From contig QHYH01000158.1 in the NCBI GenBank assembly GCA_003223215.1, forward strand, positions 1-42,048: a DNA stretch of 42,048 nt. Direction: 5' to 3'. The notes under the pieces are model-generated. The model searched no databases, had not been told where the DNA came from, and saw only the letters and a list, made by a program, of their open reading frames with translations. Made by a program: the position numbers and the translations under genes. Positions 18,583 to 18,902 of this stretch are shown piece by piece; position 1 is the first letter of the stretch, and the number at the start of each line of letters is the position of its first letter. The stretch is from Acidobacteriota bacterium. GTDB taxonomy: Bacteria; Acidobacteriota; Terriglobia; Acidiferrales; UBA7541.

Positions 18583-18699
18583 AGCGTCCCGGGAGGAAGA
18601 CTGGCTCTCGCGTTTGCGGGGACTCTCGTGCGCTTTTCTTACCAGATGCGCCGTGAGGCTCCCTTCTTGAGAACGGGGATATAAGGCGCAGGTTTGGTG

Positions 18700-18873
18700 T
18701 ATAGTTCTTTTGTCGCAAGACCTTAGGGCCGGGCAGGCCCGATGTGAAGCCTGCGGAGATGCGGCGCAGCAAGGCCGATCGATGAAACAGGAACCCGCCG
18801 AAAGTGCTCTGGTTGAAACCAAACCAGGCTTCGTAGGAATCCTCGCCTTTTTTAAGGGCGGGAGGATGTCAAC
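18700..18873 (+). ncRNA. Stand-alone omega-RNA-like element / IS200-IS605-type right end
   Basis: A gene-free stretch of 320 bases before gatC holds a segment that resembles the guide-RNA scaffold of TnpB-type IS elements. It has an internal motif GATGAAACAGGAACCC (18781-18796), a hairpin CTGGTT/AACCAG (about 18809-18827), and a terminal hairpin with ATCCTC (18839-18844) and GAGGAT (18862-18867). It ends in the typical GGAATCC...GGAGGATGTCAA signature. Other stems: GGGCC/GGCCC and GCAGGC/GCCTGC near 18726-18753. A TATAGT (18700-18705) could be a -10 giving an RNA from about 18712. No tnpA, tnpB or iscB remnant is present. Resemblance is from memory of IS605/IS1341 ends. Decayed end versus working RNA cannot be told. 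Confidence 0.55.
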
Positions 18874-18902
18874 AAGAACGTAGAACCTACAACTGGGTAC
18901 AA

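Follow-up and report, generated by a model that had tools for sequence, protein, structure and literature searches.

A probable miniature IS200/IS605 element carrying an omega-RNA scaffold upstream of gatC in an Acidobacteriota genome

Analysis of the region directly upstream of gatC in a 42,048-nucleotide stretch of Acidobacteriota DNA (the window, meaning the whole stretch analysed) led us to conclude with considerable confidence that the feature at 18643-18872 is a miniature, gene-less IS200/IS605 element of the IS608 type, derived by internal deletion from an element with the order LE-tnpA-tnpB-RE. The basis of this reading is the presence of both ends, the many copies, the conservation of the RNA, its homology to tnpB-linked RNA and, for another copy (C130), a site in relatives that fits precise insertion 3' of TTAC. 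The deletion would have kept the left end (LE), the omega-RNA-encoding 3' end of tnpB and the right end (RE), and a Y1 transposase supplied in trans would have moved the resulting element as single-stranded DNA.

Limits, parts and copies of the element

The initial annotation had described a stand-alone IS200/IS605 right end with a guide-RNA scaffold starting at 18690. Alignment of the copies revealed that similarity runs upstream as far as a TTAC, and the element begins at 18643, a left-end hairpin behind the TTAC at 18639-18642 having been missed. The parts of the element and its surroundings are as follows.

18643..18872, + strand: whole non-autonomous IS200/IS605 element, 230 bp (from copy alignment, left-end search and ends)
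18639..18642, + strand: TTAC target tetranucleotide (cleavage site CL; putative TAM), directly 5' of the element
18643..18690, + strand: left end (LE), bipartite hairpin with outer stem TGCGCC/GGCGCA and inner stem CTCCCTTC/GAACGGGG, one pair broken
18700..18705, + strand: TATAGT, a -10-like box of a putative omega-RNA promoter (from the recurrence of TANNNT in spacers)
18713..18871, + strand: tnpB 3'-end remnant, in the frame of the TnpB C-termini of relatives (QEP[AT]E, VGI; judged by eye)
18719..18872, + strand: omega-RNA scaffold (from the score of covariance model R1, tnpB-linked matches and covariation)
18836..18872, + strand: right end (RE) with guide GAAT at 18837-18840, hairpin, and cleavage site TCAA at 18869-18872
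18873..18892, + strand: 20-nt flank, putative guide within the gatC 5' region (placed by analogy with the ISDra2 reRNA, as outlined in PMC8612924)
18903..19205, + strand: gatC, a neighbour outside the element (PF02686, E 2.3e-18)

The signature first noticed, GGAATCC-hairpin-GGAGGATGTCAA with an internal GAAACAGGAACCC, is indeed present in this region (GGAAT at 18836-18840, GAAACAGGAACCC at 18784-18796, TCAA at 18869-18872). By itself, GGAGGATGTCAA proves little, since the window holds one exact occurrence and eight matches with at most two mismatches, against 2.9 expected. The region as a whole is not a product of chance, because a search of the element's own genome (8.8 Mb in 279 contigs, 97.65% complete) with 18690-18890 returned 40 matches, 13 of which, besides the window copy, share 91-99% identity over about half to nearly the whole query. 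The element carries no transposase gene, and its copies are dispersed in the genome. A tnpB remnant, previously thought to be lacking, was recognised in the last tnpB codons, which stay in frame at 18713-18871 and read QEPAES and VGIL. Pfam and PDB searches with this 53-residue remnant gave no match, and a search of 396 genomes of the phylum yielded the own genome plus a single weak match (E 0.009).

Searching the own genome with an RNA model detected 47 loci at E ≤0.01, the last few of them weak or partial, which belong mostly to two families. The window copy is a member of family A, while family B is diverged and has the same plan: a left-end hairpin, a spacer, GACCTA(G/T)GGG, the core (C/G)AGGAACCC(A/G)CCGAA, a stem, and then CGTAGGAATCCTC, a hairpin and GGAGGATGTCAA. 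Outside the own genome, the window element was matched in 8 of 60 relatives at E ≤0.001, in some along short parts only, and similar gene-less elements of the same plan are present in related genomes.

Comparison of the ends with those reported for IS608 (CL = TTAC, CR = TCAA, GR = GAAT, GL = AAAG; PMC5934647) revealed close agreement, as the window element is bordered by TTAC and TCAA and has GAAT right before the RE hairpin, and family B and the tnpB-bearing relatives carry AAAG ahead of the left hairpin. Unlike IS608 as described there, the window element has no genes, and the bases before the hairpin are AAGG in family A, with GAGG in the window copy itself. Of the 35 copies checked for ends, 22 yielded a left end in a pattern search, with lengths of 223-258 bp; it is preceded by TTAC in 20 copies, TTAG in one and TTGC in one, counts that reflect a locating pattern favouring TTAC-like sites and the exclusion of 13 copies that lack a left end or have one the pattern did not recognise. 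TGTCAA closes the right end in 15 of these 22 copies. As in PATEs, the ends are thus fixed, with insertion 3' of a tetranucleotide and no target duplication, and near-terminal hairpins with a 5' guide stand at both ends. The LE hairpin of the window copy is weakened and eroded (-7.8 kcal/mol, z -1.28, compared with -13.0 kcal/mol, z -4.89, for the same stretch of the sister copy L012), and its RE hairpin has a z of -2.28. The early suggestion of a decayed element holds in the sense of an internal-deletion derivative with an eroded left hairpin. The scaffold is largely intact and has a putative RNA function.

Scaffold RNA, cognate tnpB and constraint

Folding of an alignment of 28 gene-less sequences with RNAalifold gave 35 pairs, 14 of them compensatory, arranged in seven helices with changes on both sides in five, so that a conserved secondary structure of the kind looked for in a TnpB omega-RNA was found. 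Paired cells in the consensus amounted to 94.9% (83.4% in shuffled and 33-49% in slid alignments), the covariation score was 0.287 against 0.105 in shuffles (0 of 500 as high), and 14 pairs were changed on both sides against 11.5 (3 of 500), while the number of pair types, one of the five measures, showed no excess (26 against 24.8, 153 of 500 as high). These controls are generous, as one alignment of related sequences supplied both the structure and the counts. The covariation is largely a difference between the two families and may go back to tnpB-bearing ancestors; the single-sequence fold of the RNA was no better than shuffles (z -0.94).

A covariance model built exclusively from the 28 gene-less sequences (R1) was searched in 28 sources. 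It scores the window copy, itself included in the model, at 144.4 bits and gives 54-95 bits at ten tnpB loci of relatives, some of which are fragmentary. It also matches two gene-less copies and one tnpB locus cut by a contig end (21 bits); no other match exceeded 17 bits in these sources, among which are the further TnpB families of the own genome. At the ten tnpB loci of relatives the RNA overlaps the tnpB 3' end and RE, and in L169 and L170 the R1 match overlaps the last tnpB codons. Copies, both ends, covariation and tnpB-linked RNA thus bear out the original assignment to an IS200/IS605 right end with a TnpB omega-RNA scaffold.

The covariance check against Rfam that had been proposed gave no match above threshold in the element region. 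We rejected the HEARO (IscB omega-RNA) reading, as Rfam HEARO found no match there, and the best sub-threshold match was RAGATH-18 (E 0.053), with a similar CCTG/CAGG stem. This match would fit a TnpB-type element of the IS607/RAGATH-18 kind, and the own genome does contain a tnpB behind a recombinase-like frame (C25), a pair that we take to be IS607. Such an origin is nevertheless very unlikely for the window element and was rejected: the RAGATH-18 score of 23.4 bits lies below the gathering score of 44.9, the mobility ends are others and match those given for IS608 (PMC5934647), a Y1_Tnp frame lies between these very ends in the relative G017, and the homologous RNA overlaps tnpB coding sequence, which the IS607 reRNA reportedly does not (PMC11061315).

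Gene-bearing forms of the element occur in two relatives. In G018, a 421-residue TnpB frame with OrfB_IS605, TNB and HTH domains is flanked by the same left end upstream and by the same RNA and right end downstream. In G017, a TnpB with three TnpB Pfam domains lies between the same LE and RE, and a 144-residue Y1_Tnp frame (PF01797, E 3.6e-20, profile positions 19-121) is located between LE and tnpB on the strand opposite to tnpB. A search of the own genome with the G018 TnpB yielded TnpBs of distant similarity (28-34% identity), along with two short pieces at 57-65%. A tnpB with a matching right end was obtained at the ten loci of relatives; in the own assembly fragments and no intact cognate copy were found, although one could be missing because contigs break at repeats. 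The sole RNA locus overlapping a cognate tnpB fragment, C116, resembles by eye an LE fused to a tnpB 3' end. The own genome has 12 Y1_Tnp matches.

A scan for the core pattern across the genome contig collection found 67 stretches. Grouped by record title, 24 of them belong to MAGs of subdivision-2 (gp2) Acidobacteria or to one MAG matching a same-genus genome, and 43 to others. When an upstream TnpB was called by tblastn (E ≤1e-4) at loci with at least 1300 nt upstream, it was found at 2 of 21 loci in the gp2 group, where a left end lies within 260 nt in 17 of 24, compared with 22 of 30 in other taxa, where such a left end was found in none. The motif therefore marks mostly tnpB 3' ends elsewhere and is mostly gene-less here. 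Three copies of the core motif in Thiorhodospira sibirica (L240, L252, L275) gave no upstream TnpB in tblastn with three queries; they are preceded by open frames of 115-138 codons, which may encode divergent TnpBs.

The TATAGT originally placed near 18700 lies at 18700-18705, where a TANNNT stands in most related elements. Of 15 dissimilar spacers, reduced from 38, 12 have TANNNT 8-24 nt ahead of the RNA start (shuffle mean 5.5, 1 of 2000 as high) and five have TTG at -35 spacing (shuffle mean 0.46, 0 of 2000); both tests were devised after the pattern had been noticed, and the spacers belong to related elements. In family A, no -35 TTG at the right spacing was found. Transcription from the spacer would yield a scaffold of about 155 nt, whose guide would be the flanking gatC leader.

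Constraint was measured as mean pairwise difference among 14 copies of family B and eight of family A. In family B, LE (0.155) and spacer (0.176) differ far more than the RNA and RE parts (0.024, 0.067 and 0.041), whereas family A, to which the window copy belongs, differs by 0.054-0.110 all along with the spacer lowest, the RNA being conserved no more than ends or spacer. These values suggest constraint on the RNA for family B and not for family A, and the pattern in B could alternatively stem from gene conversion or a young burst. It is quite possible, if somewhat less than even, that the scaffold is an inert passenger, kept solely because it overlaps the RE needed for transposition, with no RNA function maintained. 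The even divergence along family A, the eroded LE of the window copy, the failure to find an intact cognate TnpB in the own genome, and the description of PATEs derived from IS605 elements as degenerate versions (PMC3119063) all point in this direction; the low divergence of RNA and RE relative to LE and spacer in family B (0.024-0.067 against 0.155-0.176) and the return of promoter-like patterns in otherwise dissimilar spacers argue against an inert passenger.

Insertion at gatC and at stop codons

The element lies 30 bp upstream of gatC and in the same direction. We located gatC (PF02686) in 57 of 61 genomes and took its upstream DNA from 29 relatives, of which one provided 8 nt only and one 402 nt, leaving 28 readable; in none of these was the core motif found in the up to 1400 nt searched upstream of gatC. 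This absence identifies the element as an insertion and not a gatC leader. A leader or riboswitch of non-mobile origin, for which the position alone speaks, has a negligible probability and was rejected, given the copies elsewhere and the absence from gatC in the readable relatives.

The initial annotation had also considered a domesticated guide RNA. In one such reading, the RNA would regulate gatC through a TnpB-like protein. The short distance and common orientation would suit such a role, as would a displacement of the native promoter: 18 of the 28 relatives have a TGCTAGAAT-like box in the 100 nt preceding gatC, at 39-48 nt from the start in 17, and no such box was found in the window upstream of gatC once the element was left out, so that the native gatC promoter may have been replaced or impaired by the insertion. 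The TATAGT of the element may now serve gatC as a promoter. Domestication is nonetheless highly improbable: the element is missing upstream of gatC in all 28 readable relatives, it is merely one of 47 scattered loci, and the occupied site is no target, because the guide is in cis and separated from the TTAC by 230 bp.

An empty gatC site would have TTTCTTAC joined to CAAGAACG. Comparison of the gatC-upstream regions confirmed the absence of the element in the readable relatives. No empty site was found for the window copy: TTAC plus the putative guide flank was absent elsewhere among 36 genus genomes, own included, at up to three mismatches in 29 bases. Joining the flanks of the copies gave no convincing interrupted gene among the open frames, and the long frame across the joined flanks of the window copy is antisense to neighbour genes. 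At the gatC locus of one relative (G011, L129), a different tnpB right end, a hairpin followed by TATGTCAC, lies directly upstream of gatC by eye and reads as an independent insertion.

A further regularity emerged from the sites of the other copies. In 13 of the 37 own-genome copies with flank (out of 47 loci), an opposite-strand frame of 90 or more open codons ends in the TGA of TCAA, as compared with one and zero in the other frames; L016 near 3181, L042 near 1794 and L035 near 3081 are examples with convergent frames. Ten of the 13 frames have a Pfam family, including cytochrome c, HlyD-type adaptor, isopropylmalate-type dehydrogenase, radical SAM, peptidase M24, GNAT and GDSL lipase, and those without one (C37, C104, C99) may be spurious. 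As TTAC is the reverse complement of G-TAA, insertion parts the last codon from TAA, and TCAA gives a TGA back. The copy on C130 illustrates this: its neighbour, a radical SAM gene, has homologues in 32 of 36 genus genomes, own included, and 17 of 19 relatives end one codon past the aligned part, with Leu (CTG, CTC or TTG) and a stop. TTAC stands at the gene end in 7 of the 19, and the own gene ends in CTT TGA, likewise with Leu, which fits a precise insertion 3' of TTAC with an unaltered C-terminus. Outside the own genome, the same count gave a weak bias at 25 related subdivision-2 loci (8, against 5 and 3 in other frames) and none at 41 loci of other taxa (2, against 8 and 5), so the effect is clear only in the own genome. 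GTAG REPs are reported often to provide their neighbours with a TAG stop (PMC3733652), and the present insertions suggest a route by which such elements enter gene-dense DNA at little cost.

Relation to known elements and possible role

The architecture and multi-copy state of gene-less IS605 derivatives are known already from the accounts in PMC3119063 and PMC7290912. Haloquadratum walsbyi is reported to harbour PATEs, numerous transposase-free elements with near-terminal palindromes of IS605 type, some of which arose by core deletion, with some remnants retaining short C-terminal pieces of the transposase (PMC3119063). The window element differs in keeping the whole scaffold, which matches tnpB-linked RNA, an omega-RNA role not being considered in the parts of that account that describe the PATEs. 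Its architecture equals that of a PATE-like IS605 element of Halanaerobium hydrogeniformans, which has about 271 nt, an LE hairpin, no tnpA, the last 58 nt of the tnpB ORF and the whole RE (PMC7290912); that element, unlike the present one, is there as one copy, and the passage on it considers no RNA role. REP elements with RAYT transposases, as outlined in PMC3733652, are likewise short and palindromic, linked to an IS200/IS605-type transposase and able to supply stops, whereas here the stop is the TGA from TCAA and an omega-RNA scaffold is aboard.

The closest model for the RNA is the ISDra2 reRNA, described as made from the tnpB 3' end and RE, about 150 nt long and taking its guide out of the 3' flank (PMC8612924). 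The window element shares the overlapped tnpB 3' codons, the RE and the putative 3'-flank guide position; unlike ISDra2 as presented in that source, it has no tnpB in cis, TTAC in place of TTGAT, and a promoter-like spacer behind LE. Less usual features of the present elements are these spacers, the tie to tnpB-linked RNA, the stop-codon sites and a family B RNA conserved above its left end. Among titles and abstract openings, no description of gene-less IS605 elements as omega-RNA carriers was found, and novelty is thus unproven.

Any cognate TnpB acting in trans would be expected to cleave sister DNA from which the element has gone (TTAC plus flank), whereupon the element would be restored; the window copy is probably idle today, as the search of the own assembly turned up no intact cognate TnpB. 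More speculatively, and in our view doubtful, the mini-elements of the genus may be dispersed omega-RNA genes with their own promoters that serve a shared TnpB in trans. Insertions at stop codons would then alter proteins little or not at all and at the same time provide a guide (the gene 3' end) and a TAM (the stop codon) found in relatives lacking the copy, which could allow homologous DNA to regain or receive each element. Provided that the RNA is transcribed, guide-RNA genes far outnumber their nuclease here (47 RNA loci, no intact cognate tnpB found), and the elements offer a natural set with covarying stems on which TnpB action in trans and guide-aided persistence of gene-less transposons could be tested.

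Several loci show rearranged or partial copies. One family A copy of the own genome is seemingly split by another element (L011/L019, at C88:247-319 on the minus strand and the start of C139), the latter having a terminal repeat CCCCAGTTTACGAG and CTAG at both sides. L072 near 1002, L075 near 968 and C36:4150-4183 of the own genome are left ends with none of this RNA downstream, perhaps other deletion derivatives. Copies of families A and B stand head to head at C104:80816-81308 of the own genome (L018), their left ends about 20-30 bp apart.
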